Positions 13,455 to 45,741 of a stretch of 64,000 nt of DNA are shown one piece after another. Within the stretch, counting starts at the first letter, position 1, and each line of letters starts with the position of its first letter. The notes beneath the pieces are model-generated. The model was given only the letters and a program-made list of their open reading frames with translations, did no database searches and was not told where the DNA came from. This DNA is from Actinernus sp. WN-2022 (lineage: Eukaryota > Cnidaria > Anthozoa > Actiniaria > Actinernidae). The stretch covers positions 1 through 64,000 of the forward strand of contig JAOWCC010000274.1 of the NCBI GenBank assembly GCA_030867875.1. Reading direction: 5' to 3'. A program made the translations under genes and the position numbers.

Positions 13455-13690
13455 AGTAGTATAGTCGGCGTCAAAATTATACCACTTTTTCTTGCACAAC
13501 AAAACTCAAAAAGTGAATTCGGAAATCCACTTTTTGAGTTTTGTTGCACAACAAAAAGTGGTATAAGTTTTGACGCCGACTATACTACTAGGGGGTACTA
13601 AGGGTCATTCAAATTGTCACTAGACATTCTTACACGTAAAAATCCAAACTTGATAACCCTATTAGAGATATGATTACATATAGTTATATC
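13455..13690. repeat. E1 left terminal inverted repeat with terminal palindrome
   Basis: It matches the reverse complement of 29514-29749. The outer 135 bp (13455-13589) is itself a near-perfect palindrome: it starts AGTAGTATAGTCGGCGTC and ends with the complement of that. The centre is GAATTCGGAAATCC, and the two arms differ at a few bases. The inner 101 bp contains TATAGTTATATC. Confidence 0.92.
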
Positions 13691-13742
13691 ACATCCTTAC
13701 ACATAAAAACCAAATTCGAGTATCTGTTGAAGCTATCCTAAC

Positions 13743-13754
13743 ATATAGTTATAT
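13743..13754 (+). promoter_or_regulatory. Promoter-like motif before E1 polB
   Basis: TATAGTTATATC ends 10 bp before the polB ATG (13765). The same core lies at 13681-13690 and in front of several other genes of both elements. A role in transcription initiation is inferred from position and recurrence. It is so close to the ATG that any leader would be very short. Confidence 0.6.
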
Positions 13755-13764
13755 CGAAGAGAGA

Positions 13765-16700
13765 ATGGCGAGACCACGTAGTGAGCCACTTTCACGGAGT
13801 CTAGCTCGAGAGGCAGGTGCTATTCTCGATGAGAGAGATGGAATGCTCGAGGGAGTGGAGATAGGCCGCCGTACTATTCGATGGCGCTTCTTCCAAGGTG
13901 TGGCAGGAGATTTGACTCCTAGGATCATGGAAAAGTTAGTTGCAAAGGTAACCACCAGCTTCTACCTGCGCTACAGCTACACCTATCGCATTCGCAATGT
14001 CAATGACGGGCGTGTGATGCTATTCTCCAAGACTGTCCCAGGCTCTCCATGGGTGAACATCCTAGGAGATGCAGAAGAGTGGATCAATAGCAAAGAGCTA
14101 TCTCGATTGAATCCTGACAACATCAATCGACCAAATACCCAATGGGCCTTCGTTCGTTGGATATATGTGGATGTCAAGGTCGTGATCGATCGTCAGCTTC
14201 TGTTGGGAACAGGCCCACTACCCCAATGGCTTCGCCATAAGAAAGGAATGCTTGCCCTTGATCGATATGGTGACAACCTATGTCTGTGGCGCTGCCTTGC
14301 CATGCATGAAGGAGCAAGAGTAGATAGGTGTTGCGTCAAAGCTCGAAAACTTGCCCAGGACTTCTATCGCCTGACAGCGCCCACACAAGACGTTCCCAGA
14401 ACTTCCATAGACCAGCTGGAGGAAGTCGAGTTGCACTTTGGAATCGGTATTCGGGTGTACGAACCTACGGAGGATGGCGCTTGGCATCTGATGCGACATG
14501 CAGCTCACTACAAGCATACGATGACGATTGGGATATACATGTACGAAGGACATGCTTTCTACATCAAGAACATCAACAAGCTAGGGAGTGTCTACGTATG
14601 TAACGATTGTAAGCAACGGTTCACGAAAACCTCAGACCTTCAACGCCATGCAGATCGTTGCAGGCGTGGAGAAACGAAGATTGTTTGCCCCGGAAAAATA
14701 ATCACAGTACCTCAGTCGGCATACGAAAAAGCCTTCTGGCCAGAGAGCACAGCCAGCAAAGTCGCTCTATGCTGGTTGGAACGCGAAACCGAAAGGATTG
14801 GGCAACACATTCATCATGCAGCTTGTGGGCATGGTGGAGAGCATTGGCTAGAAGGAGCGCCAGTTGACGGCTACGAACCTATTTCGAAAACCATCTTCCA
14901 ATTTCATGGATGCTATTTCCATGGCTGTCCGAAATGTTTCCCTAGGGAAAGAGCTCTCTACCGTAAAACTTGTGAAAGAACGGCAAAGCTACAAGGAGCT
15001 GGTTATACAGTAGTGGAAGCTTGGGGCTGCTCCACAAAGAAGAAGAACAAACCGGTTCCCACACCAACGCAAACTGTCTACCCACACTTCATAGTTTACG
15101 ATTTCGAAGCCTATCTCGATACAACGAAAGGAAGACAACCAACAGACCACCTGACCATCGAAAACGTCCATGTCCCAATATCAGTATCAATTGCCGACAC
15201 GTACGATCGAACACCAACCCACATCTGTCGACGCAATCCAAAAGAACTCATCGAAGCCTTCGTCGAAGAACTCCAGCAAAGAGCAGAGACAATCCAAGTA
15301 GCTATGGCAAGATGGTACAGGCTAGATACACTCAAATTCTCCTTCGACACCCTACCAAAGGGACAACAAGCGAAGATCGACGAATGGATCGGTCAAGTTC
15401 CAGTATTGGGATTCAACTCTGGAAGGTACGATCTCAATCTGATCAGGGAGCACTTCGTAGGAACCATTGCCGACACCTGTACAAAAGTCCGGGTGGCAAA
15501 GAAAGCCAACACCACTATGTTTCTCTTGACTCCCGATTTCCGTTTCCTCGATGTGATGAACTACCTTGGACCAGGTACTTCCTACGAACGTTGGATCACT
15601 GCCTATGGATGCGAGTTGCAAAAGAGTTTCTTCCCATATGAGTGGTTCGACTCTCCCGACAAGTTGGATCACGTTGGATTACCAGACTATCCAGAGTGGG
15701 GTTCGAAGTTGAAAAGAGAACACCTACTATCTAGGTCAGAGTTCGAAGACTGTAAGCGCACCTTTCTCGACAAAGGAATGGAAACCTTTGCAGACTGGCT
15801 ACGATACTACAACAACCTAGACGTAGTTCCATTCCTAGAGGCACTCGAAAAGATGCGAGATTTCTATCACGAGAAAGGAGTAGACATGCTGAAAGACGCA
15901 GTGTCCATTCCAGGAGTCTCACTACAGTTCCTGCTTCGAGGTAGTGTAGAAAGGGGAGCTGAGATGTACGCTCCAAGTAAGGAAGCCTACCACATGCTGA
16001 AAGACGCTGTCGTGGGAGGTCCAAGCATAGTGTTCACCAGACTCCACGAAGCGGGAAAAACTAAGATTCGTAGTCACCAAGGTGGAACCAAGGTGTGTCG
16101 CAAGATTCTTGGATATGATGCCAACGCCCTATATCTTTCCACGATGGAATTCGAAATGCCTTGTGGAAAAGAAGAGGTCATTCACTACGATGAGCCAGGT
16201 CTAGAAGCCGAAGGATTTGTCGAATGTCTACAAAATGGTTCGTGGTTTGGATATGCAGAAGTAGACATTGAGATACCAAAGAAATTGTGGAAGAAATTTG
16301 AGGAGATGCCACCCTTCTTCTACAACAAGAAAATCCCCAAGAAAGCAATTCCTCCACAAATGTTGGCCTACCTCACAAAGACAGGTAGAAAGCTCAGCGA
16401 GGAAACAAAGCTAGTTGGGAGTCTCTCTGGAAAGAAGTTGCTCCTCTATGAGCCTCTATTACGTTGGTATGTAGATCATGGCGCAGTGATCACTGCTGTC
16501 TACCGTACAATAGAATACGAACCCAAAGAAATCTTCGGTTGGTTCGTAGACCAGGTCACCGAGGCACGTCGTATGGGAGATGAAGACAAAGGTGAGGCTT
16601 TGCTGGCAGATGTGTTCAAGCTGCTAGGAAACAGTGCTTATGGAAAGTTGCTCGAAGACTTGGGACGCCAAACAAAGGTCACCTATACAAAAGATGAGAA

Positions 16701-18410: not shown

Positions 18411-18428
18411 TCTAACCTTCAACAGATG

Positions 18429-18508
18429 AAAAAAAAAAAAAAAAAAAAAAGAATAAGAACCAGGCCTCATTCCTTTCTTTTTTTTTTTTTTTTTCTTTTT
18501 TTTTTTTT
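18429..18508. terminator. A-tract/T-tract hairpin, degenerate, E1
   Basis: A run of A, a short centre (GAATAAGAACCAGGCCTCATTC) and a long T run form a hairpin just upstream of the integrase start. It sits on the 3' side of the minus-strand operon-like block. The centre differs from the other four family members (27554, 28275, 35210, 44027). Confidence 0.5.
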
Positions 18509-18945: not shown

Positions 18946-18979
18946 TTCTATAGCCATTTACTAATAGCGTATCCAACGC

Positions 18980-19378: not shown

Positions 19379-19587
19379 TACGGTATGATCTTTTGTTTCT
19401 CAAGATATTGTTTTGCGTATAAGCTACCAAGTATCACGGCAGTCCACTTTGCGTAATTCACTAGGGAAGAAGAAGGATCGCTAAGCATAGATTCCTTGGT
19501 AGTCTTTTTTACGATCCACCCAATACCAGAAGCGAGTCCAACAATTATAGATGCATCGGTTGCCGTCTTCATCAATTCCTTATCCAT
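19378..19587 (-). CDS. Small membrane protein, 69 aa, E1
   Basis: MDKELMKTATDASIIVGLAS begins a hydrophobic helix (residues about 12-28), and a second hydrophobic stretch covers about 45-60. The DPSSSLVNYAKWTAV pattern recurs in small proteins I recall next to the 142-aa family in cnidarian genomes. The stop touches the start of the next gene, which suggests co-transcription or very tight packing. E2 has a 68-aa intact copy. Function unknown. Confidence 0.75.
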   Translation of the reverse strand: MDKELMKTATDASIIVGLASGIGWIVKKTTKESMLSDPSSSLVNYAKWTAVILGSLYAKQYLEKQKIIP

Positions 19588-22346: not shown

Positions 22347-23480
22347 GTCTAACATGGACTTTAAGATTGATGGGAGGTATGAGGAAAGAACTGATGAAGC
22401 TGAAAGAGGAAAAGATGACGATGATACTGTCAATGAAGAAGCACGGAAATTGGCGTTTCCAGACTCTACGAATGTGGATCCGAGTGAATCACTCAACCTG
22501 AAAACTAGACGCGACTTCGCCAAGGAAGGTGCTCGACCAAAGAATCGGGAAACCTCGTTTACCGTAGACGATGATTACATAGCCGAACTCGGAAGTCGGA
22601 AGTCTCGAACCTTTCTAGAGAGCAATTGATGGATGAGGATAGAATCGAAAATCCGAAATTTAGCGATCGCCACGTAATCTTCAAAGCAGGCACATCGGAT
22701 GAAATGAAACAAATGCTATTCGATACTGTATGGAAACACTATGCGGATGTAGGGACTCGTGGAGGAGTCCTTGAGATAACTGGAATATGGGAGGCCAATA
22801 AGGAACTGGGTAGAATCTATCTTCACGTACTTGGAAGTAAAGAGAAGCCCATACCTTTGACCACAGTGAAGGGTGAAAGATACCAAAGTATGGGTAAGGA
22901 TCTCAAATTTGCCCTAGGCCCTACGGATGCAGAAAGAGCAGAACAAGTCATCCAAGGTCAAGAAAAGGCCGCCGAACATCTCAAAGTAGAAGATAGCATA
23001 CTTCTAAGCTCAACGTCAACTGAGGACCAGAAGGAAGCGGCTAAGGAAGAGAAAGTACGCATCCATAACGAAATAGAATTACTCGAACGTCAAGAAGAAG
23101 CCATACTAGAACGTACATCGCTACGTGAAAGGATCAAATACATTTTCAGAAAGCATGGAATGACTGTTCTTGCAGTGGTAACTTCCGTTGGCGCTATCGT
23201 TAGTACGATAGTTTCCCTGTTGTCGAGATCCGTACCGAAACCAGTAAAGGCTGGTATCGATAAAGCAGCAGATGCAGTAAAGAAGGGTTTGAAAACGACT
23301 GAGGGGTTGCTAAAAGAAATGGGAAAGGAACTTGGACAGATCCTACCTGGAATGATTGGATCTATTGTGAGTTTCATATTTACTATGGCTGGTAAAGCTC
23401 TGGGAGTACTAGCACAGAACGTTTGGTTATTCATCGTAGCAATAGTGGTGATCACTATAGAGCAATACAAACGACGTTAA
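22345..23480 (+). pseudogene. Coiled-coil and membrane protein (378-aa family), frameshifted, E1
   Basis: The first frame, 22345-22629, holds an acidic N-terminus. The second, to 23480, holds the rest. The frame change lies near 22600, where E2 reads without a break. The second part has a long charged coiled coil (EDQKEAAKEEKVRIHNEIEL), then three hydrophobic segments: KHGMTVLAVVTSVGAIVSTI, an amphipathic AADAVKKGLKTTEGLLKEMG region, and QNVWLFIVAIVVITIEQYKR at the end. I recall this Gly-rich membrane-active C-terminus from many cnidarian adintovirus-like proteins. A membrane-penetration role is inference. Confidence 0.75.
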
Positions 23481-25189
23481 CGAAACAACATCCATGCGAT
23501 TCCAGCTGCGGCAATGGATGTCACTGTGAGATTGATCTCATGTTGTGGGACAGCCTTTAGTATAGGATCTCGTTTCTTGTGCGTCTCGAGAGGAACTTGT
23601 TTCTTGTGCGTCTCGAGAGGCGGCACCAATTTCTTATCTGATGGTCCTTCCATAGGAAGAGGTGTGCGTCCTTTGACTTCTGCATTGATGTCGTTAGTGC
23701 CTAGCACCATATCTTTCGTAGCTTTCGGGATTGGATTCCTATAGCCATCTTTCTTACCAAGATAGTACACTAGATTGCTTGGTAATAATCGCACGCCTAC
23801 AGATATTGCTAGATCGAGCCTCTTATGCGTCATCTTTATAGCAAGAAGATAGTTATCGTAACTTTTCTTTAAGTCGTTTACGAGAATAGCGCCTTCAACC
23901 AAGCTCTTAAACTTTTCTTTGACGTTATGACTATCTATGATGGATTCGTTCAAGTCGGCTTGAGAACCAAGCATGCAATATCCAAAAGCCTCGACAGATC
24001 TATTCAACCTACCCAATCCAGCATCTGTCAAACCCTTTCCGATTGGTGGCGTAAACCAATTGTATTGCTTTCCTTCATGTTCATCGTTCCTAATGAAGGC
24101 CACAAGATCGCCCTGATCCTCCTTACCTCCTTGGTCTGCAAATAAATTATATTTCTGAGGCCATGTGGTTGCACCTTTGTCATAGCTTCGGTCTCCATGG
24201 ACGTTTACGTATCCTGTCGAACCCGGGTACAAAAGGAATATATCTCCTAGTCCATTATTCCTACCTCCGTGCCATCGGAAATCTGGTGTTCGAGATATGC
24301 CAAATTCGATGCACAATTTCTCAAGAGCTGATTTGTTATAGGGGTTATCCATTTGCTTGAAAGCAGGGTCACCAGGTAAAGGAACTCCATGAGTACCACC
24401 AAGCTCACGTAGAATTCTTCGTATCGTGAAATAAACATGAAATCGTAGTAGTCCTTGAACAATAGTAGGATACGTTTTGAAAATAGGATCAAACAATGAC
24501 ACTCCACATCCAGAAGTCGCACACCACGTTGCGAAATTCAATTGTTGAGGCCAATATTTGAAATCCGGACCATGTAACCAATGGTAGGACTCATTTGCTG
24601 TCATATGCTTTACGACGGTCTCCTTGAATATATTTGGAACGCCTGCTTTGAACTTATTCGTTGGGTTATTCGTTGGGTTCTTCGTTGGGGTGACATATAT
24701 CCATAGATTAGTGAGATCGATATCTTGTGCCGGTTCAGTAGAAGGAACTGCTGTAATAGGATATTTCGCACTATTATCTAGGGTCAACGTAGATGGGAAA
24801 CCTCTATGCACATCCCACAACGCATTATCGATGCGTTTTTGAATCGTAGTAGGTAACTTTGAGACATCATCGCCGTAAACGACATAGCTAAAATCTCCAT
24901 CTCGAAACCAAATACTCGTCGAATATTTGCCTGGACCGTTCACTTCCGTAGAGGCATAGAACTTGTGAAGATCTGCATGTGGGTATCGTTTCTTGAACTT
25001 CGCTAATAGATCTGCATTCGATGTTGCGACCTCTCTACTTTCCACATCTTCCCTATCTATCCGAGCTTGATTCTCTCTCCTAGCTCGATTCTCAGCCTTT
25101 GACCGTATATTAGCATTCGGCGTTGGGACCTCTTCCTCTTCGTCTTTCCCTTCGTAATGGTAACTGAAAAGACCTCCGGACCTCCTCAT
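23477..25189 (-). CDS. Conserved 570-aa virus-like protein with C-terminal anchor, E1
   Basis: It starts MRRSGGLFSYHYEGKDEEEE and has an acidic/basic N-terminal 70 residues. The central domain has landmarks LNFATWCATSGCGVSLFD, FHVYFTIRRILRELGG, IEFGISRTPDFRWHGGRNNG and GLTDAGLGRLNRSVEAFGYC. A low-complexity linker with a repeated LETHKK unit follows, then a C-terminal helix (LTVTSIAAAGIAWMLF). I remember the central domain from many uncharacterised cnidarian proteins, but no function is known to me. A virion or membrane-associated protein is likely from its anchor and its place in the capsid-gene block. It is divergent from 25231 across a shared palindromic promoter and overlaps the end of the 378-aa family gene by four bases. 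Confidence 0.78.
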   Translation of the reverse strand: MRRSGGLFSYHYEGKDEEEEVPTPNANIRSKAENRARRENQARIDREDVESREVATSNADLLAKFKKRYPHADLHKFYASTEVNGPGKYSTSIWFRDGDFSYVVYGDDVSKLPTTIQKRIDNALWDVHRGFPSTLTLDNSAKYPITAVPSTEPAQDIDLTNLWIYVTPTKNPTNNPTNKFKAGVPNIFKETVVKHMTANESYHWLHGPDFKYWPQQLNFATWCATSGCGVSLFDPIFKTYPTIVQGLLRFHVYFTIRRILRELGGTHGVPLPGDPAFKQMDNPYNKSALEKLCIEFGISRTPDFRWHGGRNNGLGDIFLLYPGSTGYVNVHGDRSYDKGATTWPQKYNLFADQGGKEDQGDLVAFIRNDEHEGKQYNWFTPPIGKGLTDAGLGRLNRSVEAFGYCMLGSQADLNESIIDSHNVKEKFKSLVEGAILVNDLKKSYDNYLLAIKMTHKRLDLAISVGVRLLPSNLVYYLGKKDGYRNPIPKATKDMVLGTNDINAEVKGRTPLPMEGPSDKKLVPPLETHKKQVPLETHKKRDPILKAVPQHEINLTVTSIAAAGIAWMLFR

Positions 25190-29513: not shown

Positions 29514-29749
29514 GATATAACTATATGTAATCATATCTCTAATAGGGTTATCAAGTTTGGATTTTTACGTGTAAGAATGTCTAGTGACAATTTGAATGAC
29601 CCTTAGTACCCCCTAGTAGTATAGTCGGCGTCAAAACTTATACCACTTTTTGTTGTGCAACAAAACTCAAAAAGTGGATTTCCGAATTCACTTTTTGAGT
29701 TTTGTTGTGCAAGAAAAAGTGGTATAATTTTGACGCCGACTATACTACT
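29514..29749. repeat. E1 right terminal inverted repeat with terminal palindrome
   Basis: Reverse complement of 13455-13690. The palindrome is 29615-29749 (135 bp). GTTTG follows at 29750-29754. Confidence 0.92.
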
Positions 29750-29754
29750 GTTTG

Positions 29755-30071: not shown

Positions 30072-30076
30072 TTAAT

Positions 30077-30411
30077 AGTAGTATAGTCGGAGTCAGTTAA
30101 ATACCACTTTTTCTTGTACAACAAAACTCAAAAGGTTGTGAATGTTATGGACGCCTTGTTTTCTTGCACAAGGGGCGTCATAAAGTGAATTCAGAAATCC
30201 ACTTCATAACGCCCCTTGTGCAAGAAAAAAGGCGTCCATAACATTCACAACCTTTTGAGTTTTGTTGCACAAGAAAAAGTTGTATTTAACTGACTCCGAC
30301 TATACTACTATGGGGTAACTAAGGGTCATTCAAAGTGTCACTAGACATTCTTGTACGTAAAATCCAACTTGATAATCCTATTAGAGATATGATTACATAT
30401 AGTTATATCGA
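30077..30411. repeat. E2 left terminal inverted repeat with 233-bp palindrome
   Basis: It matches 45407-45741 reversed. The palindrome is 30077-30309: the outer arms start AGTAGTATAGTCGGAGTC, and both arms carry an extra block (GGTTGTGAATGTTATGG, then TTGCACAAGGGGCGT) that E1 lacks. The centre GAATTCAGAAATCC resembles E1's. Confidence 0.92.
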
Positions 30412-30560
30412 CATCGATTGCTTGTACGTAAAATCCAACTTGATAATCCTATTAGAGATATAATTACATATAGTTATATCGCTGCAACGTCCTTACACAT
30501 AAAATCCAAATTCGAGTGCCTGTTAAAGCTATCCTAACACATAGTTATATCGAAGGGAGA
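30412..30560 (+). promoter_or_regulatory. E2 leader with repeated TATAGTTATATCG motifs
   Basis: After the TIR a second copy of its last segment ends in TATAGTTATATCG near 30470-30482. A third occurrence at 30541-30552 precedes the polB ATG (30561) by nine bases, as in E1. Confidence 0.6.
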
Positions 30561-33500
30561 ATGGTGAGACCACGTAGTGAACCACTTCCACGGAGTCTAG
30601 CTCGAGAGGCAGGTGCTATTCTAGAGGAGAGAGATGGAATGCTCGAGGGGATGGAGATAGGTCGCCGTACTATCCGATGGCGCTTCTTCCAAGGTGTGGC
30701 AGGAGACTTGACTCCTAGGATCATGGAAAAGTTAGTTGCAAAGGTAACCACCAGCTTTTACCTGCGATACAGCTACACCTATCGCATTCGAAATGTCAAT
30801 GACGGACGCGTGATTCTATTCTCCAAGACTGTCCCAGGCTCTCCATGGGTGAACATCCTAGAAGATGCAGAAGAGTGGATCAATAGCAAGGAGACAGCTC
30901 GATTGAATCCCGACAACATCACTCGACCAAATACCCAATGGGCCTTCGTTCGTTGGATCTACGTAGATGTCAAAGTCGTGATCGATCGTCAGCTTTTGTT
31001 GGGAACAGGTCCACTGCCCCAATGGCTTCGCCTTAAGAAAGGAATGCTTGCCCTTGATCGATATGGCGACAACCTATGTCTTTGGCGCTGCCTTGCCATG
31101 CATGAAGGAGCAAGAGTAGATAGGTGTTGCGTCAAAGCTCGAAAACTTGCCCAGAACTTCTATCGCCTGACAGCACCCACACAAGACGTTCCCAGAACTT
31201 CCTTAGACCAGCTGGAGGAAGTCGAGTTGCACTTTGGAATCGGTATTCGGGTGTACGAACCTACGGAGGCTGGCGCTTGGCATCTGACGCGACATGCACC
31301 CCACTACAAGCATACGATGACGATTGGGCTGTATGAAGAACATGCCTTCTACATCAAGAACATCGACAAGATAGGGAGTGTCTACGTATGCAACGATTGT
31401 AAGCAACGGTTCACAAAAGCCTCGAACCTTCACCGCCATGCAGATCGTTGCAGGCGTGGCGAAACAAAGATCGTTTGCCCCGGAAAAGTAATCACAGTAC
31501 CCCAGTCGGCATACGAAAAAGCCTTCTGGCCAGAGAGCACAGCCAGCAAAGTCGCTTTATGCTGGTTGGAACGCGAAACCAAAAGGATTGGACAACACAT
31601 TCATCATGCAGCTTGTGGGCATGGTGGAGAGCATTGGATAGAAGGAGCGCCGGTCGACGGCTACGAACCTATTTCGAAAACCATCTTTCAATTTCATGGA
31701 TGCTATTTCCATGGCTGCCCGAAATGCTTCCCTAGGGAAAGGAGGCTCTATCTCAAGACTTGTGAAAGAACGGCAAAGCTACAAGGAGCTGGTTATACAG
31801 TAGTGGAAGCTTGGGGTTGCTCTACAAAGAAGAAAAACAAACCGGTCCCCACACCAACACAAACTGTCTACCCACACTTCATAGTTTACGATTTCGAAGC
31901 CTATCTCGATACAACGAAAGGAAGACAACCAACAGACCACCTGACCATCGAAAACGTCCATGTCCCAATATCAGTATCAATTGCCGACACATACAATCGA
32001 AAGTCAACCCACCTCTGTCGACGCAATCCAAAAGAACTCATCGAAGCCTTCGTCGAAGAACTCCAGCGAAGAGCGAAAGCGATCCAAGAAGTCATTGCAG
32101 AACAGTTCTGCCCCAAGACACCTGAATTCTCTTTTGACACCCTACCAAAGGAACAACAAGCGAAGATCGACGAATGGATCCGCCAAGTTCCAGTAGTGGG
32201 ATTCAACTCTGGCAGGTACGATCTCAATCTGATCAGAGAGCACTTCGTAGGAATCATTGCTGACACCTGTTCAAAGATCCTGGTAGCAAAGAAAGCCAAT
32301 TCCACTATGTTCCTATTGACCCCAGATTTCCGTTTCCTTGATGTGATCAACTACCTTGGACCTGGAACTTCTTATGAACGTTGGATCAAGGCATATGGAT
32401 GCGAATCGCAAAAGAGTTTCTTCCCATATGAGTGGTTCGATTCTCCAGACAAGTTGGATCACATTGGATTACCAGACTATCCAGAGTGGGGTTCGAAGTT
32501 GAAAAGAGAACATCTACTATCTATGTCAGAGTTCGAAGACTGTGAGTGCACCTTTCTCGACAAAGGAATGGAAACCTTTGCAGACTGGCTACGATACTAC
32601 AACGACCTAGATGTAGTTCCATTCCTAGAGGCACTCGAAAAGATGCGAGATTTCTATCACGAGAAAGGAGTAGACATGCTGAAAGACGCAGTGTCCATTC
32701 CAGGAGTCTCACTACAGTTCCTACTTCGAGGTAGTGTAGAAAGGGGAGCTGAGATGTACGCTCCAAGTAAGGAAGCCTACCGCATGCTGAAAGACGCTGT
32801 CGTGGGAGGTCCAAGCATAGTGTTCACCAGACTCCACGAAGCAGGAGTGACTAAGATTCGTAGTCATCAGGGAGGAACTAAGACTTGTCGTAAGATTCTT
32901 GGATACGATGCCAACGCCCTATATCTTTCTACCATGGAATTCGAAATGCCTTGTGGAAAAGAAAAGGTTGTGCACTATGACGATCCAGGTCCAGCCACTG
33001 AAGGATTCGTTGAATGTCTACTTGGTGGAACGTGGTTTGGATATGCAGAAGTAGACATCGAGATACCAAAGAAATTGTGGAAGGAATTTGAGGAGATGCC
33101 ACCCTTCTTCTACAACAAGAAAATCCCCAAAGAAGCAATCCCTCCAGAAATGTTGGCCTACCTCACAAAGACAGGTAGAAAGCTCAGCGAGGAAAAGAAG
33201 TTAGTTGGAAGTCTCTCTGGAAAGAAGTTGCTACTCTATGCTCCTCTTCTACTTTGGTATGTAGATCACGGCGCAGTGATCACTGCTGTCTACCGCACGA
33301 TAGATTACGAACCCAAAGAAATCTTCGGATGGTTCGTGGACCAAGTCACTGAGGCACGTCGTATGGGAGATGAAGATAAAGGTGAGGCTTTGCTGGCAGA
33401 TGTGTTCAAGCTACTAGGAAACAGCGCCTATGGAAAGTTGCTCGAAGACTTGGGACGTCAAACAAAGGTCACCTATACAAAAGATGAGAAGGTTGTGGAC

Positions 33501-34151
33501 AAGGCATTGCGAAGTGTTTGGTTCGAAGACCTGGAAGAGATTGGTGATGCATACGAACTCGAGAGTAGGAAAGACCAGATCCGAATCAAACGGCCTTTCC
33601 AAGTAGGTATCGCTGTGTACCAGCTCGCAAAGCTGCGTATGCTTGAGTTCTACTATGACTTCATCGACAAGTACATCGATCGCAATGATTTCGAATATAT
33701 ACAGATGGACACAGACAGTGCCTACATTGCCATCTCGGGAAATAGCCTCGATGAGGTTGTAAGACCGGAACTGCGAGAAGATTTCGAAGCCGAAAGGAAT
33801 GAATGGCTAGCTTGGGACGAATGGAGCAGTCGTACGCCAGGACTCTTCAAACTCGAATTCGAAGGACATCGCGCCATTGCCCTATGCTCGAAAGCCTACT
33901 ACGTCGATACAGGTGGCAGCAAGAAGTATTCCGCTAAAGGTATGTCTAGACGGCACAACGACATTTCGTGGGAACGATTCAAAGCAGCCCTCCAGGGTAG
34001 TATCGACATGGCGGAAAACCGAGGCTTCCGACTATCGCCAGAAGGCATAGCAACCTACGAACAACGGAAGCTTGGGCTATCGGCTTACTACGACAAAAGA
34101 CGCGTTCTTCCCGATGGAATCCACACCGAGCCAATAGAGTACGCTGTTTAG
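30561..34151 (+). CDS. polB: Family-B DNA polymerase, E2
   Basis: 1196 aa. The ATG at 30561 (MVRPRSEPLPRS) matches E1's start; the longer frame from 30516 reads through the promoter motif and is rejected. All motifs listed for E1 are present: the C2H2-like finger (VCNDCKQRF), FHGCYFHGCPKC, Exo I YDFEAYL, GFNSGRYDLN, polymerase A DANALYLSTM, B LLGNSAYGKL, C MDTDSAYI. It is two residues shorter than E1. Differences from E1 cluster around residues 500-540, between Exo I and Exo II. It looks fully functional and ends tail to tail with the integrase. Confidence 0.95.
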   Translation: MVRPRSEPLPRSLAREAGAILEERDGMLEGMEIGRRTIRWRFFQGVAGDLTPRIMEKLVAKVTTSFYLRYSYTYRIRNVNDGRVILFSKTVPGSPWVNILEDAEEWINSKETARLNPDNITRPNTQWAFVRWIYVDVKVVIDRQLLLGTGPLPQWLRLKKGMLALDRYGDNLCLWRCLAMHEGARVDRCCVKARKLAQNFYRLTAPTQDVPRTSLDQLEEVELHFGIGIRVYEPTEAGAWHLTRHAPHYKHTMTIGLYEEHAFYIKNIDKIGSVYVCNDCKQRFTKASNLHRHADRCRRGETKIVCPGKVITVPQSAYEKAFWPESTASKVALCWLERETKRIGQHIHHAACGHGGEHWIEGAPVDGYEPISKTIFQFHGCYFHGCPKCFPRERRLYLKTCERTAKLQGAGYTVVEAWGCSTKKKNKPVPTPTQTVYPHFIVYDFEAYLDTTKGRQPTDHLTIENVHVPISVSIADTYNRKSTHLCRRNPKELIEAFVEELQRRAKAIQEVIAEQFCPKTPEFSFDTLPKEQQAKIDEWIRQVPVVGFNSGRYDLNLIREHFVGIIADTCSKILVAKKANSTMFLLTPDFRFLDVINYLGPGTSYERWIKAYGCESQKSFFPYEWFDSPDKLDHIGLPDYPEWGSKLKREHLLSMSEFEDCECTFLDKGMETFADWLRYYNDLDVVPFLEALEKMRDFYHEKGVDMLKDAVSIPGVSLQFLLRGSVERGAEMYAPSKEAYRMLKDAVVGGPSIVFTRLHEAGVTKIRSHQGGTKTCRKILGYDANALYLSTMEFEMPCGKEKVVHYDDPGPATEGFVECLLGGTWFGYAEVDIEIPKKLWKEFEEMPPFFYNKKIPKEAIPPEMLAYLTKTGRKLSEEKKLVGSLSGKKLLLYAPLLLWYVDHGAVITAVYRTIDYEPKEIFGWFVDQVTEARRMGDEDKGEALLADVFKLLGNSAYGKLLEDLGRQTKVTYTKDEKVVDKALRSVWFEDLEEIGDAYELESRKDQIRIKRPFQVGIAVYQLAKLRMLEFYYDFIDKYIDRNDFEYIQMDTDSAYIAISGNSLDEVVRPELREDFEAERNEWLAWDEWSSRTPGLFKLEFEGHRAIALCSKAYYVDTGGSKKYSAKGMSRRHNDISWERFKAALQGSIDMAENRGFRLSPEGIATYEQRKLGLSAYYDKRRVLPDGIHTEPIEYAV

Positions 34152-35191
34152 CGTCTAGGTACAAACAGAATTCCTTTTGGTGGTAGTTCTGTATCCCTAG
34201 GAACGACTTGTAGCTCTTCACGAACGAATCCACGTTTGGGTGCATCCTTCTCCTTCGCAAGGTAGTACAGCACAGGCTGTCCCGAAGATACTACACTTCG
34301 TGAAATGGTGTATATTTGCAAACTCCACACAGGATCAGTAGCTCTACGTTTTTCACCTCCTTCCAATTCTCCTGGTGCATAAAGATATCGAACTAGAACG
34401 TCGAATGGTAGACGCTCTTCTCTCAATCCAACCGTGCGCGAATATGTAGGAGTCTTCAGATCTACTTGTTGCGCCACTACAGAATTCGAAGGCTCTTTAC
34501 CAGTCAACCGAGTCACCTCACTGTTCATGGCTTTGATAACCATTGGTAAACGAATTACCCATTCTCTACTACGCTCATCTGATCCTTCCGAAGTAAGCAC
34601 CATCTCTTGTGCATATTGATATCCAAACAATCTCTCAGCTAGAGTCCTATTTGCTCTTTCAACAAAACTTTGCGCTCTATGATTACCAGCCTCACCTCGT
34701 TGAACTTTCGTACCATGTAGTTCTAGCGTTTCAGACATACGTCCCATGAATTCTCTACCAGGATCTACTTGCAAAGTCTTTGGCCATTCTAGTGGACTAC
34801 GTTTATAGATTCGTTCGAATGCCGCAGCAACTTCACCACTATCTTTAGATGCCAAAGGTTCGGCTTCTTTGTATCGAGAAGCTACGTCGATTACTACCAA
34901 TGCGTACTTGTATAGCTTCCGTCCACGCCCAGGTCGATCGTGTGGTAGAAATATCAAATCAGCTTGGTGGACTTCATTTGGTTTCGATACAGTCCAATGT
35001 GGTCGTGGAATGTGTTTTGGTGGTGGTAGATATATTTGCCACATAGATTGCTTTTCCAACCAACTCCTAGCTACGTCTTCTGATGCTTTCGCTGCTACCG
35101 ATAGCTTGCCAATTGCAGAGTGACCTTTCCAATAGCCCATAGGACCATAGAAGATATTCGCAAGTTTAGAATCCATCATACATCTATACAT
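34148..35191 (-). CDS. int: Retroviral-type integrase, E2
   Basis: 347 aa from the ATG at 35191. The upstream TTG start seen in the open frame is not needed. The D,D-35-E core is identical in layout to E1. The C-terminal part lacks three residues relative to E1 (YYLAKEKDAPKRGF here against a slightly longer YYLVKREGEKNAPKRGF). An intact integrase with perfect TIRs fits recent insertion. Confidence 0.93.
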   Translation of the reverse strand: MYRCMMDSKLANIFYGPMGYWKGHSAIGKLSVAAKASEDVARSWLEKQSMWQIYLPPPKHIPRPHWTVSKPNEVHQADLIFLPHDRPGRGRKLYKYALVVIDVASRYKEAEPLASKDSGEVAAAFERIYKRSPLEWPKTLQVDPGREFMGRMSETLELHGTKVQRGEAGNHRAQSFVERANRTLAERLFGYQYAQEMVLTSEGSDERSREWVIRLPMVIKAMNSEVTRLTGKEPSNSVVAQQVDLKTPTYSRTVGLREERLPFDVLVRYLYAPGELEGGEKRRATDPVWSLQIYTISRSVVSSGQPVLYYLAKEKDAPKRGFVREELQVVPRDTELPPKGILFVPRR

Positions 35192-35209
35192 TCTAACCTT
35201 CAACAGATG

Positions 35210-36166: not shown

Positions 36167-36514
36167 TTACTCCATGTCTAGTGCCGTTGGCTTTGCTGGA
36201 GCTGCAGGTTGTATCGTGCTAACGGTGGCAGCTCGCTTATTACCATCTACATACTTCTTGTACGCAAAGTACGTGCCAAACAATGTGGCGCCAGTACCGA
36301 TGACTGCGAGGATAGTCAGGCTTTCGAACCGACCTTTCTCTACGTCGACTTCTTTACATGATTCGCTTTCGCGCATCAACTCTCTCTTTTGAGCTTCTTT
36401 AGCGAGTTTGTTGCTTAACGCTAGGGCTTTTCCAGCTGCGACGCGCTTTGGGTTTTTTATCTTAGTTGGTGCAGTCGTCGGAGGATTCGCAGTTATCTGG
36501 TCCACTTCTTCCAT
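36167..36514 (-). CDS. Single-pass membrane protein with KNPKRVAAGK motif, 115 aa, E2
   Basis: MEEVDQITANPPTTAPTK begins the protein. The basic KNPKRVAAGKALALSNKLA motif, one helix (LTILAVIGTGATLFGTYFA) and the DME end are as in E1. It overlaps the upstream frame by 53 bp. Confidence 0.75.
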   Translation of the reverse strand: MEEVDQITANPPTTAPTKIKNPKRVAAGKALALSNKLAKEAQKRELMRESESCKEVDVEKGRFESLTILAVIGTGATLFGTYFAYKKYVDGNKRAATVSTIQPAAPAKPTALDME

Positions 36515-37616
36515 CTTGATTCAGTATAGTAGATATATGTGAAGGTTCAACAGTTGTACCAGGAATGACTACGTGACCAGATATGTGGAATAGGACGCTA
36601 GCTAGAGCTACAAGGCGACCTGCTTTGAGCGATAGTAGACCAGTCGCAGCACTGATTTCGTTGCGGACTAGAGGGTCTTCTTGTAGGTCCTTGATCAGGG
36701 CTTCTTGAGAATCTATTGGTACTAGGTAGGCAACTAGGCGGGTAGCTAGACGTGTCACACCGTCGACTAAGCCTTTCGTTACTTGCTTAGCTAGAACGGC
36801 CTGATACCTCCTATGCAACTTGTCTACTTCTTTCTCAGGAAGTCTAGAGATGTCTCCTAGGGAAAAGTTTTTACCTAAGTATTCTTTCGTTACGCCTGTT
36901 GCAGCTAAGATCGAAAGTGATTCGCGATTTTCTGACGTAACGTCTAGGTTGGTTGGTGGTGGGCCTGTTACGTCCTCACCGAATATCTCGAGTATTTCCT
37001 TATCAGTCATAATGGATGCTGGGAGCTCTAACACTACCTCGAAAGGATGGCGTAGACAGAAGCACATGCGAGCAAACTTATGGGATCCAAGTATCGTTCG
37101 TAACTCTTTGCATTCTTGCGAGCCTCCATAATCCTCAAATATCCTTTTGCCATCTACGGCCGATGCTGTATGGAACGCTACTACGATAGCTACGTTCTCA
37201 CGGAAGGGCTTACATATGCTCGTTAGTTGTTGGGACAGCACCCAAACGGAAATCCCTATATGTCGTGCAGAAAAGGCTAAGTCCACTAGCTTGTCAGTTC
37301 GTTTCTTGACGTCCTTCGATGCGGCGCAATCGTCAAGAATCAATAGAGTATTGGTACCTGACCAAAATGTTGCGCAAATACTCAAAGTAGCATCGATGGC
37401 ATCCTGCGGTGGCGATATGACGAAGAAATGAGGATCTCGATTTGCGAATCCACGATAAGTTTTGTTGTGGGCATACGTAGGACAAATCAGTACTATGTAA
37501 TCGAACTTACCACGAAATGCTCCACGAAGTTGTTCTATGAGAAACGCAGTCTTCCCACAATTCGTTGGACCGACTATGAGTGCGTTGAACGGCACGTGCT
37601 CTACGAGAGAATCCAT
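36462..37616 (-). CDS. Packaging ATPase fused in frame to the 182-aa protein, E2
   Basis: 384 aa. The first 200 residues are the ATPase (Walker A GPTNCGKT, Walker B LLILDD, VLSQQ). After VVLELPAS the frame continues through IMTDKEILEIFGEDVTG into the second protein. In E1 a stop and overlap separate the two. The junction differs by a small deletion (E1 20468-20485 against E2 37010-37018). Whether E2 makes a fusion or restarts at the internal Met of MTDKEIL cannot be told from sequence. The C-terminus is two residues shorter than in E1. Confidence 0.88.
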   Translation of the reverse strand: MDSLVEHVPFNALIVGPTNCGKTAFLIEQLRGAFRGKFDYIVLICPTYAHNKTYRGFANRDPHFFVISPPQDAIDATLSICATFWSGTNTLLILDDCAASKDVKKRTDKLVDLAFSARHIGISVWVLSQQLTSICKPFRENVAIVVAFHTASAVDGKRIFEDYGGSQECKELRTILGSHKFARMCFCLRHPFEVVLELPASIMTDKEILEIFGEDVTGPPPTNLDVTSENRESLSILAATGVTKEYLGKNFSLGDISRLPEKEVDKLHRRYQAVLAKQVTKGLVDGVTRLATRLVAYLVPIDSQEALIKDLQEDPLVRNEISAATGLLSLKAGRLVALASVLFHISGHVVIPGTTVEPSHISTILNQDGRSGPDNCESSDDCTN

Positions 37617-41650: not shown

Positions 41651-41686
41651 GTTGAAGCTATACGTATATATAGTTATACCTTCAAC
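41651..41686. promoter_or_regulatory. Inverted-repeat divergent promoter, E2
   Basis: Identical in layout to 25190-25225, with GTTGAAG and CTTCAAC arms. It serves the 563-aa (minus) and 224-aa (plus) genes. Confidence 0.68.
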
Positions 41687-41693
41687 ACATAAG

Positions 41694-42368
41694 ATGGTTC
41701 TCTTATATGTCACCACAACATCGGCTGACCATACTGTCTACTTCGACGACCCTATTCTTATACAGAACGTTTCACTAGTCGAGGTCACTTTCGAGAACAG
41801 TTGGTGGAATCTAGAAGAGCCAGGGAGCTTTCATTGGAAGGTCAATGGTGTGATGTTTCCACACGAAATTAAGGTGGGGAACTACGATATACCAACCCTC
41901 CAGACCCTCTTCAAACCCGCAATCAAAGCTGGTATCATAAAATTCGGGAAAGACTTATTGACGGGGAATTGGGTCCTAGATGTCATGAAACCTATCATTA
42001 TTAGCACAAATATCTGTGAACTGTTTATTGAAGCATGTAGGAGTTCCCCAAATACTACCACGACTTTAACTTTAGCGGTAGGCACTTTCCCTATAAGTAT
42101 CCTCTTTGAGATCGATACGGTATATGTCCACTGTGACGTAGTGGATTCCAGCTTCTCACTCCTAGAGGGAAAACGCTCGAAAGTCTTGGCTAGCATAAAT
42201 GTCCGAGGCGATAGATTTGTGAAAACGACGTATGCCTCACTACAACCTCTAGATGTCAAAGCTCTAGGTACGATACAAAGCAGCCTTCGTCTGACAATTC
42301 TCGATGAGAAAGGCAATCTGATAAACTTCCGTGGTCGACCTATACGATACGTGTTGAAGCTTGAGTAA
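41694..42368 (+). CDS. Minor capsid/penton-like protein candidate, 224 aa, E2
   Basis: The ATG at 41694 (MVLLYVTTTSADHTVYF) is chosen by alignment to E1. The first 45 residues and the last 90 align closely with E1. The middle (GKDLLTGNWVLDVMKPIIIS and onward) is almost unrelated and of different composition, although neighbouring genes are about 90 percent alike. This points to diversifying selection or recombination at an exposed part. Confidence 0.65.
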   Translation: MVLLYVTTTSADHTVYFDDPILIQNVSLVEVTFENSWWNLEEPGSFHWKVNGVMFPHEIKVGNYDIPTLQTLFKPAIKAGIIKFGKDLLTGNWVLDVMKPIIISTNICELFIEACRSSPNTTTTLTLAVGTFPISILFEIDTVYVHCDVVDSSFSLLEGKRSKVLASINVRGDRFVKTTYASLQPLDVKALGTIQSSLRLTILDEKGNLINFRGRPIRYVLKLE

Positions 42369-42387
42369 GCTATATGTATAACGTACA

Positions 42388-42999
42388 ATGGAAGGCGATT
42401 CGATTCAACCGTTTCCATCAGCACCAAGTATCTATCCACAGATTGCTAGTGACACTGGAAAGAACTTTAGACTGCAAACGATCCGAGACACACTTTCGGA
42501 CATAGAAGTTCAAGAAAGGCACTACGAAGGTGTGCGCAAGAAATATGCACGTTCTCAAGGAATAGTTCATGGAATCGCAGTGGCAACTGGAGGTCTATCT
42601 GTGATCTTATCTGGATCTGGATTGGGTGCAGCGTTGACTGGGGTTGGAATAGTGATTGGTCTACCACTTGGAGTTATTGGTGGACTATGTGGATTAATTT
42701 CAGCGTCTACGACCGTTGGAGCTAAGAAGTTAGGAATGAAGGTTTCTAAGCATGAAAGGACAACTATGTTGGCAAAGGCGAAAATCAATACGATTCGCGA
42801 TCTAGTATCGAAGGCCTTACGCGATGAAAACATATCCGACTCCGAATACAGTCTCATCCTAAACGAAGCGAATAAGTATGAGATCATGAGATCTGAAATT
42901 CGTCGCAAGGCTTCCATAGGTGAAAAAAGCACGGATCGGGTTCGAGCCGAACTCAAGCAAGAAGTGCAAAAGGAAATGCGAGAAAAACTTGGAATGTAA
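42388..42999 (+). CDS. Conserved helical membrane protein, 203 aa, E2
   Basis: Nearly identical to E1 but reads on to EKLGM at the end. The Gly-rich hydrophobic hairpin is IAVATGGLSVILSGSGLGAA followed by GIVIGLPLGVIGGLCGLI. The near-identity to E1 contrasts with the diverged gene just upstream. Confidence 0.76.
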   Translation: MEGDSIQPFPSAPSIYPQIASDTGKNFRLQTIRDTLSDIEVQERHYEGVRKKYARSQGIVHGIAVATGGLSVILSGSGLGAALTGVGIVIGLPLGVIGGLCGLISASTTVGAKKLGMKVSKHERTTMLAKAKINTIRDLVSKALRDENISDSEYSLILNEANKYEIMRSEIRRKASIGEKSTDRVRAELKQEVQKEMREKLGM

Positions 43000-43002
43000 G
43001 AA

Positions 43003-43995
43003 TCAACGTTTCCTATGAAAGGAACGAACATGGTTCTCACTTTCACTTTGCCAAGTCCTACTGCTAGTTAGCCCATGTCTAGCGTAGATTGGTTCGAAGT
43101 GGGAATGGTAAGAAGACAACTCCTTGACAAAACGCTTGACCGCATTTCCAAATATGCCACATCGCTTAACGACATCCTTAAAAGACATAGACGATCCGGA
43201 GCGACGTAGCACCTCGTAACTTGCTCCAACGACTTTCGTCTTAAGCATTGATTTGGGGCCTATATTGTTTTCCATTGCCGTAGTAACGACCTCGTGGACT
43301 ATTTGTTGAACGTCCCTAGGTACTCCTACAAGATCTAGTTGTAGGAAAGTCGTTGCAATGTGAGGAACTAGGCGCTCCGCATCCAAGTCTACATCAATCT
43401 TATCGTCGTCACACAGAGAACGTATGAAGACCTCTCCACTATGGATGCCTTCGTTTCTTAGTTGCATGAAGCGAGCGACCTCACCTTTAGATCGGACGAA
43501 TCCACATTGTATGCATGCCTGGTAGAGTAGAGCAGCTAAAATATTTTTCTTAGCATCGCTACGCTTGAGACAAACTTTCATTACTTGGGTGAATGCGTCG
43601 GCTACGATTTCTAACGCGTTCATAGGGAACGATAGATCATAACTTTGTTTGTAAATAGCGTTGTATGCTCGTAGTTCTTGTAGTAGCGTTCGTCGTTTCA
43701 GTTCTATGTCATCATCGCTTTGCTTTGGTTTTGCGCGGTCTAGATCACTTTGATACTTAAACCCGTCCAGACCTACTATACGCAGTCGAGTAGTAATAAT
43801 ATCGATCTTAGTTTCTGTACATGGTTCAACCTCGGAAACAAGACCACATGTGGGACACACGAATTCCGTTCCTTGTACTTCCAAGGGACAGAGACAATCA
43901 GAACATGTTTCACTGGTGTTAATACGTTCCACTTGTGGTTTGATATTCAGGCTTCTACAAATTCCAGGACCAAACAATCTGACTAGCTCGTCCAT
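43003..43995 (-). CDS. TFIIB-like transcription initiation factor, E2
   Basis: 330 aa, starting MDELVRLFGPGICRSLNI. The zinc ribbon (CSDC...CPTC) and both cyclin-like repeats are present. The tail after HGLTSSRT runs 18 residues further than E1 because the E1 frame meets a stop. Sequence drift from E1 is greater than in the capsid genes. The stop lies three bases from the end of the plus-strand gene ending at 42999, so the two are convergent. Confidence 0.86.
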   Translation of the reverse strand: MDELVRLFGPGICRSLNIKPQVERINTSETCSDCLCPLEVQGTEFVCPTCGLVSEVEPCTETKIDIITTRLRIVGLDGFKYQSDLDRAKPKQSDDDIELKRRTLLQELRAYNAIYKQSYDLSFPMNALEIVADAFTQVMKVCLKRSDAKKNILAALLYQACIQCGFVRSKGEVARFMQLRNEGIHSGEVFIRSLCDDDKIDVDLDAERLVPHIATTFLQLDLVGVPRDVQQIVHEVVTTAMENNIGPKSMLKTKVVGASYEVLRRSGSSMSFKDVVKRCGIFGNAVKRFVKELSSYHSHFEPIYARHGLTSSRTWQSESENHVRSFHRKR

Positions 43996-44026
43996 GATAC
44001 AACTATAGATGTCGTACGTTCAATAG

Positions 44027-44091
44027 AAAAAAAAAGAGGAATGAAGAGGGCCACGCAACGACCTTCTTCATTCTTCCTTTTTTTCTTTTTT
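44027..44091. terminator. A-tract/stem/T-tract hairpin, E2
   Basis: AGAGGAATGAAGA, the loop GGGCCACGCAACGACC, then TTCTTCATTCTTCC and T runs. Positionally equivalent to 27554-27628, just 3' of the Cys-rich gene. Confidence 0.6.
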
Positions 44092-44102
44092 CGTGGCTAG
44101 TC

Positions 44103-44540
44103 CTAAGCGTCCTTCTCGTTCCTCAAGGCAGTCAACACCTCGTTGAGCGCATGGTTGAGAGACTCTCCAAGACCTTCCACTGGTTCCAACACTCTTGGTT
44201 CTGCGGGCAATGCTACCTCCGGTTCCACCACGTTTGGCTCCTCCTTTCTTGGACCCTCTAGCGTCTTGCTGGACTTCTTAGCGCGTTTTATATAGACACC
44301 GGGACACTTCATCTTGATGGCGAGACGGTCGCATCTTGAGCAAAGCCCGTAACTAGTACGACATCCTTTACCGCACTTCGAGCATGGTACGTATGGGGCA
44401 CAGCCTTTTGCGATTTGGTAGTTGTGCTGGGAACAGAACTTCGTTGTCTTCGAAATCCTCTTTGGGCATTTTGAGTCCTTCCCTCTCATCAACCAATCAC
44501 AAGTTATTGCGGCGTCTACATTTGAGTTCTTCTTCGACAT
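44103..44540 (-). CDS. Cys-rich zinc-binding protein, 145 aa, E2
   Basis: The same Cys/His ladder as E1: CDWLMRGKDSKC, FCSQH, then CSKCGKGC and CSRC. The Pro/Glu-rich tail has one PNVVEPE unit rather than the E1 duplication. It probably binds nucleic acid or protein through zinc sites; function unproved. Confidence 0.72.
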   Translation of the reverse strand: MSKKNSNVDAAITCDWLMRGKDSKCPKRISKTTKFCSQHNYQIAKGCAPYVPCSKCGKGCRTSYGLCSRCDRLAIKMKCPGVYIKRAKKSSKTLEGPRKEEPNVVEPEVALPAEPRVLEPVEGLGESLNHALNEVLTALRNEKDA

Positions 44541-44666
44541 GTTCGATCTGTATGGTGTTAATGCGTACTAAGATAACAACGTAAGCTAGTATTGTGGAAT
44601 AAAGAATATATACTAATACCATTTAGTGGTAATATACAGTATAATAATCATTCCTTTAACATATAC

Positions 44667-44710
44667 TTCAAGTTTGGATTTTTTAGGTGCGCGAATGTCT
44701 AGTGACACTT
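44667..44710. repeat. Internal copy of the subterminal repeat, E2
   Basis: CTTCAAGTTTGGATTTTTTA, then GAATGTCTAGTGACACTTT, matches E2's own TIR near 45448-45487 and the E1 copy at 28235-28273. The cargo gene stop lies just beyond it. Confidence 0.8.
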
Positions 44711-44717
44711 TGGCTTC

Positions 44718-45395
44718 CTACGTGGCAGAATGAGCATCCATGTAGTTGCGTAGTACAACCCTTTCGTCCTCTGTGAGCTGGGAGTACTGCCACTTAACGA
44801 ACCATTTAGCGATATCAAGATGACCATTGTTACAGGCGTATTCTATAGCAAGATCAATGCATTCATACTCTAGGGTTATCTGAAAACGTCGCATGAGCCA
44901 CTTAACGTTATTAAGATGACCATTCCTACTGGCACCTAATATAGCAAAACTGACGGCTTTATCCTCTTTGGTGAACTGGAAGTGCTTAATGAGCCACTTA
45001 GCGATACCAAGATGACCATGCTCAAGGGCAGCGCGTAGAACGTGATTGGCGTGTCTGTCCATCATATCGAAACGTAAGTGCTTGATGAGCCACTTAACAG
45101 CATTAAGATCACCATATTCGCTGGCGTAGAGAAGAGAAAAGCTATCGTCGATGGGGCTTGCGGAAATACCGAAAGTTCGAGCCAATTCGTCTCGATCGTC
45201 GTCACTATGAGTAGACCTCAAACCAAAGCGTAGTGCTAGTTTACGGAACACTTGGTCTACGTTTTTGTAGCGCGCAAGAGATGCAGCACCGTTTAGGCGT
45301 TTCGATGTCCTTGAGAGGCTTGCGAATGACCAAGGATCTGCATGCTCTACGATCTTAGTCAGAATTTCTAGAGGGAGGCACGATATATAATCCAT
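44718..45395 (-). CDS. Right-end cargo gene: F-box plus ankyrin-like repeat protein, E2 only
   Basis: 225 aa. The N-terminal F-box (residues about 3-35) is ISCLPLEILTKIVEHADPWS followed by FASLSRTSKRLN. Four repeats of about 33 residues from about residue 84 each contain a GHL/GDL...KWL motif (YGDLNAVKWLIKH, HGHLGIAKWLIKH, NGHLNNVKWLMRR, NGHLDIAKWFVKW), the form of giant-virus ankyrin repeats. F-box proteins bring substrates to SCF ubiquitin ligases, and viral F-box/ankyrin proteins (poxvirus, giant virus) are known host-range factors. Here the F-box is N-terminal, unlike poxviruses. It replaces the SSB-like gene of E1. Confidence 0.82.
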   Translation of the reverse strand: MDYISCLPLEILTKIVEHADPWSFASLSRTSKRLNGAASLARYKNVDQVFRKLALRFGLRSTHSDDDRDELARTFGISASPIDDSFSLLYASEYGDLNAVKWLIKHLRFDMMDRHANHVLRAALEHGHLGIAKWLIKHFQFTKEDKAVSFAILGASRNGHLNNVKWLMRRFQITLEYECIDLAIEYACNNGHLDIAKWFVKWQYSQLTEDERVVLRNYMDAHSAT

Positions 45396-45406
45396 AGTGG
45401 AAGAGA

Positions 45407-45741
45407 TCGATATAACTATATGTAATCATATCTCTAATAGGATTATCAAGTTGGATTTTACGTACAAGAATGTCTAGTGACACTTTGAATGACCCTTAGT
45501 TACCCCATAGTAGTATAGTCGGAGTCAGTTAAATACAACTTTTTCTTGTGCAACAAAACTCAAAAGGTTGTGAATGTTATGGACGCCTTTTTTCTTGCAC
45601 AAGGGGCGTTATGAAGTGGATTTCTGAATTCACTTTATGACGCCCCTTGTGCAAGAAAACAAGGCGTCCATAACATTCACAACCTTTTGAGTTTTGTTGT
45701 ACAAGAAAAAGTGGTATTTAACTGACTCCGACTATACTACT
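45407..45741. repeat. E2 right terminal inverted repeat with 233-bp palindrome
   Basis: Reverse complement of 30077-30411. The palindrome is 45509-45741. The inner part carries TATAACTATA next to the cargo-gene start. TTAAT follows at 45742-45746. Confidence 0.92.

Follow-up and report, generated by a model that had tools for sequence, protein, structure and literature searches.

Co-changing arms in the terminal palindromes of two Polinton/Maverick elements suggest occasional fold-back at the element ends

A 64,000-nucleotide stretch of contig JAOWCC010000274.1 from Actinernus sp. WN-2022 (hereafter the window, meaning the whole stretch that was analysed) carries two Polinton/Maverick elements, E1 (13455-29749) and E2 (30077-45741), separated by a gap of 327 bp, and each of their four ends is a long palindrome. 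With moderate confidence, we read these as linear elements, probably replicated by protein priming, whose terminal palindromes occasionally fold back so that the two arms copy each other, and in which a separate process matches the two ends. Covariation of the arms over 44 palindromes and the capture of inverted ends, both from the 1.39-Gb eukaryotic assembly that holds the window, argue that fold-back pairing is needed at some point.

Self-alignment places the palindromes where a preliminary description of the window had put them, with 135 bp at both ends of E1 and 233 bp at both ends of E2 (Table 1). That description called them complete, which is right in that they reach the exact element tip and wrong as to their pairing: the palindromes are imperfect, with a few mismatches and an asymmetric centre, and 124 of 137 aligned columns (E1) and 220 of 235 (E2) are identical to the reverse complement. 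The left and right terminal inverted repeats (TIRs) are identical to each other over 236 bp in E1 and 335 bp in E2, each TIR thus comprising its palindrome and a further ~101 bp of repeat that is not palindromic; the TIRs of E1 differ from those of E2. The predicted single-strand DNA folds, which the preliminary description had suggested examining, go far beyond shuffled sequences, at -63.6 kcal/mol for the E1 TIR (z -14.55, matched by 0 of 200 shuffles) and -122.9 kcal/mol for the E2 TIR (z -26.95, matched by 0 of 100).

The extra block that distinguishes E2 is indeed present in all four of its arms, as had been claimed, with 50 bp in the outer and 49 bp in the inner arm. Besides this block, seven single columns of the E1-E2 arm alignment have changed in both arms simultaneously, eight have a single odd arm, and three distinguish the outer from the inner arm in the same way in E1 and E2. 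The idea that the block arose by simple insertion at the centre was rejected, because the block lies between the centre and the outer stem in both arms while the centre, GTGAATTC(A/G)GAAATCCAC, is kept. Judged by its sequence, the E2 arm seems to combine two arm types, A (...AAAACTCAAAAAGTG) and B (...GGGCGTCATAAAGTG), that occur elsewhere in the genome. A 49-bp block or a multi-base motif would pass most simply from arm to arm, with the centre kept, through a fold-back or cruciform. Each of the four blocks (e.g., 30137-30186) also appears, by eye, to contain a small internal inverted repeat, TTATGGACGCCTTGT / ACAAGGGGCGTCATAA, which makes an alternative branched fold possible.

Covariation across the genome bears out the view that independent mutation is inadequate to explain one change in four arms. 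We compared 44 distinct palindromes of 133-136 bp (of 46 distinct ones, the 82-bp and E2 palindromes being excluded) over 63 column pairs. Both sides have changed in 17 of the 63 pairs, amounting to 141 cells, a level that none of 500 shuffles reached, and the best slid control gave 6 pairs and 50 cells. The covariation score is 0.152, compared with 0.063 in the shuffles and at most 0.071 in the slid controls, and 91.9% of cells are paired, compared with 86.3% in the shuffles. One column pair, 15/125, shows all four Watson-Crick types (AT 16, CG 11, GC 10, TA 5, other 2), while 29 pairs are invariant and hence uninformative. The tip stem has 1364 cells, of which 1309 are Watson-Crick pairs, 9 G-T and 46 other (33 of the 46 at one column); with G-T this rare, no route through G-T intermediates is seen.

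A single position stands apart. Column 30 in the outer arm is C in 44 of 44 palindromes, and its partner in the inner arm, column 110 (alignment A4; 30 nt from the inner palindrome edge), is T in 29, G in 11, A in 3 and C in 1. The resulting mismatch, in which the outer C faces T, A or C in the inner arm, is found in 33 of the 44 palindromes and differs between ends in three elements. It is possible that column 110 is a site where synthesis starts, or the site of a nick or lesion. Individual ends also carry possible traces of exchange: at L090 the centre is canonical, yet the inner arm shows the outer version at two marks, and at C540:26566620 the outer arm resembles the partner end and the inner arm is of another type.

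How regularly the palindrome accompanies the element was surveyed with two queries. The E1 TIR gave 2595 candidates, and a palindrome-free query from the E1 inner TIR (13590-13709) gave 1806, with 40 scored in each case. A palindrome is present at 35 of the 40 ends scored with the palindrome-free query, collapsed to 82 bp in one case, and absent from the other 5. The resulting table, anchored on the inner repeat, holds 78 ends, 72 with a palindrome and 6 without; it excludes five 305-bp artefact rows (a second anchor of the same end) and lacks the E2 right end, which is included in the pairwise end comparison. The 72 palindromes, reduced to 61 after merging by flank and tip, measure 134 bp in 55 cases, 133, 135 or 136 bp in 15, and 82 and 233 bp in one each, and the centre is canonical in all except the collapsed 82-bp one (71 of 72). 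Of 1481 candidates for E2-type ends, the 40 that were scored (two of them the window's own) matched over the full 334-335 bp with an identity that rounds to 100%.

The two ends of an element usually match. From 26 paired rows, a spurious pair of an E1 left with an E2 right end and two pairs with the palindrome missing at one end were excluded; the remaining 23 element pairs represent 20 distinct insertions, one set of flanks being common to three and another to two. The 5-bp target-site duplication (TSD) is identical in all 23, and the two palindromes differ at 0-4 positions in 22 of them (at none in 12). The exception, C1312:79181509-79201791 (20.3 kb, TSD ACGAG on both sides), has 25 differences, with arm types unlike between the ends and arms matched within each end. 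At C540:38477637-38494305, an 82-bp palindrome stands at one end and the outer arm is largely lost at the other, with GTATT beside both tips by reading. The claim that palindromes change size in step at both ends is too strong, the ends agreeing in 22 of 23 pairs but not in these two elements, and matched ends are the common rule, not a strict one. Together, the hybrid C1312 element and the damaged C540 element indicate that arm matching and end matching are separable.

An early reading, that orientation never inverts, was overturned by 14 inverted ends of the E2 type. Exact patterns joining the centre to the inner repeat, which miss ends with a mutated centre in either orientation, occur genome-wide 332 times in canonical and 14 times in inverted form, with no match to reversed-pattern controls, so that 96% of the 346 E2-type ends are canonical and 4% inverted. 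When read, the 14 inverted ends show 1-7 differences from the exact flop and 10-18 from the flip. In L091, which differs once, and in L100, whose 2 differences form a compensated pair close to the tip, the inversion extends nearly to the tip; the other 12 have canonical bases at at least one mark or additional changes, and the length of the inversion tract varies. All six partners that were traced, for 14 inverted ends, are canonical: four came from eight regions sampled at guessed positions (L105, L106, L107 and L110, where the 5-bp TSDs match, with GATAG at L106), and two from canonical-pattern matches (C540:16077002 and C635:82728127). Pairing by distance only, with 100 of the 332 canonical places listed and the 14 inverted ones, gave 44 pairs with both ends canonical and 3 that are mixed. 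In the A/B type, the inverted pattern has two matches.

Damaged ends provide a further view of the termini. Of the six tabulated ends lacking a palindrome, five break at or beside the centre; two of these have lost the outer arm wholly and three keep ~7 nt of the tip, two of the three being one duplicated locus. Ends that have lost their outer arm wholly or for the most part, broken at the centre or beside it, are found at C398:25067437, C685:125477483, C235:42729294/43042999 and C540:38494305. These breaks look as if hairpins had been opened or palindromes broken at the apex. A different loss, of most of the inner arm and the inner repeat, is seen outside the 78 ends at C790:5298961 (L047). 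Elements palindromic at a single end, which the preliminary description had held would speak against its proposal, do therefore occur to some extent; they look like damage or single-end events, and 72 of the 78 ends keep the palindrome.

We propose that, during DNA synthesis, a displaced or resected terminal strand would fold on itself, allowing its 3' tip to pair with the inner arm. Copying or mismatch correction could then move sequence between the arms, so that the gain or loss of a block in either arm would be passed on to the other. A second process, either panhandle annealing of both ends or recombination, would equalise the two ends. The main replication would probably be protein-primed from open ends, preserving the canonical orientation, and fold-back would be an occasional route, in the repair of damaged ends or as a side reaction, with no obligatory rolling-hairpin cycle. 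We count in favour of this reading the viral-type family B polymerase and integrase, the absence of a significant Rep/HUH or resolvase match in the ORFs scanned, and the canonical orientation of 332 of 346 ends; arm changes common to the whole family place much of the arm copying in the element's own replication. In a more speculative version, which we consider rather unlikely, fold-back would be a regular step: the 3' tip would snap back on the inner arm and prime or patch the end, the frequent mismatch located 30 nt from the tip would act as a stem mark that lets the machinery restore one orientation, and protein-primed and hairpin-primed replication would be combined in one eukaryotic element family.

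Similar changes could arise after insertion, if the palindrome were a fixed cis-element in which quasipalindrome template switching by host polymerases equalised the arms and inverted the centre by error. Arm homogenisation and spacer inversion by template switching in chromosomes are both described in part of one source (PMC8604942), and the varying extent of inversion, nearly complete at L091 and L100 and partial or further changed at the others, is in keeping with it, as are the canonical partners expected from single post-insertion events. Against this, the tip motif, the A/B block and the E2 block, all large co-changes, recur at both ends and in many insertions, with the 40 scored E2-type ends matching at 100% (rounded), and were therefore inherited via the element's own replication; we regard chromosomal template switching as rather unlikely. 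The layout of a palindrome followed by a non-palindromic inner repeat, like that of the inverted terminal repeat (ITR) of adeno-associated virus (AAV), and the existence of 14 inverted E2-type ends and of two A/B-type matches to the inverted pattern could also suggest obligatory hairpin-end replication, in the parvovirus manner (rolling hairpin) or the poxvirus manner (closed hairpin, resolved concatemer). Such a regular mode is expected to mix the orientations, with flip and flop about equally common for a rolling hairpin, and they are not mixed: canonical and inverted ends number 332 and 14 in the E2 type and 71 and 0 in the end table, which leaves the mode unsupported. No significant Pfam match to a Rep/HUH nuclease or a telomere resolvase was found in the element open reading frames (ORFs) scanned (at least 100 aa; distant forms of Rep/HUH could escape), and the 5-bp TSDs lie directly at the palindrome tip, pointing to integration from open duplex ends with both arms. 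We judge obligatory hairpin replication to be very improbable. Accordingly, of the fold-back or hairpin-end replication put forward in the preliminary description, the part that links the arms by fold-back is upheld by covariation and inverted ends, and the regular parvovirus- or poxvirus-like mode is not, at 332 against 14.

The strongly conserved pairing, invariant in 29 of 63 pairs, would also be expected if the hairpin itself were required, perhaps as a binding site, with pairing restored arm by arm through compensatory point mutations. Selection of this kind is highly improbable as the explanation, given that multi-base motifs and blocks of 49-50 bp are altered in both arms together and that few cells of the tip stem, 9 of 1364, show G-T intermediates. 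Several points nevertheless weigh against our fold-back reading. All ends examined are integrated copies from one genome, no relative having been found beyond it in scans of viral-contig and genome-contig collections, so that the comparison rests on that genome; and in chromosomes template switching can produce equalised arms and inverted spacers as well. The single-end inversions may be replicative or may reflect post-integration template switching, and they fit post-integration events as well. Among the five covariation measures, one is not raised, further standard pair types numbering 23 against 26.2 in shuffles (496 of 500 as high), and the shuffle test overstates significance for related sequences. 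Fifteen of the 63 pairs deviate by unpaired cells alone, most of which we read as poor alignment of the A and B types or as fixed mismatches. The persistent mismatch at column 30 implies that arm copying is incomplete or that the site is remade, L090 could be an older variant rather than a conversion, and the six ends without a palindrome fit palindrome decay equally well as programmed opening.

The two elements share a gene order of viral-type family B polymerase, rve integrase and A32 ATPase by Pfam (Table 1), and their polymerases are 92% identical. Among 120 listed of the 253 matches to the E1 polymerase, the five species-named relatives are all from the coral Oculina patagonica, at 56-59% identity. 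As to the double jelly-roll capsid protein and adenovirus-like protease of Polintons, the candidate capsid protein of E1 has no Pfam or PDB sequence match, and its predicted structure is poor (predicted local distance difference test score, pLDDT, 51.6); the protease had no Pfam match in the E1 and E2 ORFs scanned. The gene adjoining the right TIR encodes a 312-aa protein with no significant Pfam match in E1 (28350-29288) and an F-box plus ankyrin protein in E2 (44718-45395), which is an accessory gene exchange. A protein encoded at 26583-27596 and 43003-43995 has weak TFIIB-repeat and zinc-ribbon matches, below the Pfam cut-offs, and is perhaps a viral transcription factor.

Repeats occur both inside and around the elements. 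Between the integrase gene and the next gene, both contain an 11-bp-based minisatellite (TAGTAGTAGCT-like; 18475-18957 and 35256-35456) whose array structure has diverged, and subterminal tandem repeats inside the TIRs (29281-29504 and 30359-30482) are unequal in copy number between ends. Arrays of a 19-bp minisatellite (AACCTAGTTTATTTTTTTC-like) lie at 12525-12691, 29839-29980 and 46109-46302, those in the two outer flanks being oppositely oriented and those between E1 and E2 running both ways. The joined flanks show no clear larger element enclosing E1 and E2, only these inverted arrays. The window also holds remnants with reverse transcriptase, RNase H and integrase domains, which we interpret as Ty3/gypsy-type.

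Table 1. Positions in the window of the termini and principal genes of E1 and E2
Feature	Position	Strand	Basis
E1 TSD, left, GTTTG	13450..13454	.	
E1 left terminal palindrome, 135 bp, tip to inner terminus	13455..13589	+	
E1 left inner non-palindromic TIR part	13590..13690	+	
E1 family B DNA polymerase, organellar/viral (protein-primed) type, 1198 aa	13765..17361	+	PF03175, E 1.2e-12; 253 homologues
E1 retroviral-type (rve) integrase, 370 aa	17358..18470	-	PF00665, E 6.1e-10
E1 packaging ATPase (Pox_A32), 207 aa	20461..21084	-	PF04665, E 1.9e-11
E1 conserved 570-aa protein, candidate capsid protein	23477..25189	-	759 homologues
E1 right inner non-palindromic TIR part	29514..29614	-	
E1 right terminal palindrome, 135 bp, identical to left	29615..29749	-	
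E1 TSD, right copy	29750..29754	.	
E2 TSD, left, TTAAT	30072..30076	.	
E2 left terminal palindrome, 233 bp	30077..30309	+	
E2 extra block, left end, outer arm, 50 bp	30137..30186	+	derived from arm alignment
E2 extra block, left end, inner arm, 49 bp	30201..30249	-	derived from arm alignment
E2 left inner non-palindromic TIR part	30310..30411	+	
E2 family B DNA polymerase, 1211 aa as listed	30516..34151	+	PF03175
E2 rve integrase	34148..35203	-	PF00665
E2 ORF with A32 ATPase domain at residues 7-150	36462..37616	-	PF04665
E2 right inner non-palindromic TIR part	45407..45508	-	
E2 right terminal palindrome, 233 bp, identical to left	45509..45741	-	
E2 extra block, right end, inner arm, 49 bp	45569..45617	+	arm alignment and identity of both TIRs
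E2 extra block, right end, outer arm, 50 bp	45632..45681	-	arm alignment and identity of both TIRs
E2 TSD, right copy	45742..45746	.	

Near-identical copies with arm marks, together with inverted, hybrid and broken ends, form a natural record of events at the termini, and the replication mode of Polintons becomes testable from sequence. Fold-back could be either a programmed step or a by-product. The ends may also connect protein-primed elements with hairpin-ended viruses, a point that bears on ideas such as the origin of bidnaviruses.

In parvoviruses, including AAV, the ITRs likewise consist of a terminal palindrome followed by a non-palindromic inner repeat, and two orientations occur. The present elements differ in that E2-type ends are overwhelmingly canonical, that no Rep-type nuclease was matched in the ORFs scanned, and that they are integrating elements with an rve integrase. 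Poxvirus hairpin telomeres resemble them in being mismatched hairpins with inverted forms, such as the flip-and-flop of vaccinia outlined in part of one source (PMC8956199), whereas inverted forms are rare here and no resolvase was matched in the ORFs scanned. Sections of a further source propose that the PolB and terminal repeats of bidnaviruses are Polinton-derived, say that bidnavirus ITRs do not form the hairpins characteristic of parvoviruses, and note that a protein-primed mechanism has been suggested for polintoviruses (PMC4061559).

With Polintons/Mavericks the elements share a viral-type PolB, an rve integrase, an A32 ATPase, long TIRs, a length of ~14-20 kb in nearly all pairs, and tips of the (AGT)2//(ACT)2 type, as excerpts on vertebrate Mavericks describe (PMC8097293). 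They differ in that the E1 and E2 ends are terminal palindromes and in that the TSD is 5 bp instead of the usual 6, so that the strict 6-bp form is not seen; TSDs of 5-6 bp are reported for polinton-like viruses in part of another source (PMC12220804). In the part of the open-access literature that was searched, which does not include subscription papers or the original Polinton papers, we found no report of terminal palindromes in Polintons. The closest working analogy, with no homology claimed, is to the linear telomeres of Streptomyces, which have several short palindromes on a bacterial chromosome or plasmid, where our elements have one long palindrome from tip to inner terminus. There, according to portions of one source, palindromic ends stand on a linear replicon capped by terminal proteins, and the palindrome at the tip is able to fold onto one further in and then be extended (PMC4513846). 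The two systems would thus be alike in having terminal palindromes able to fold back, as predicted folding and covariation suggest for the elements described here.

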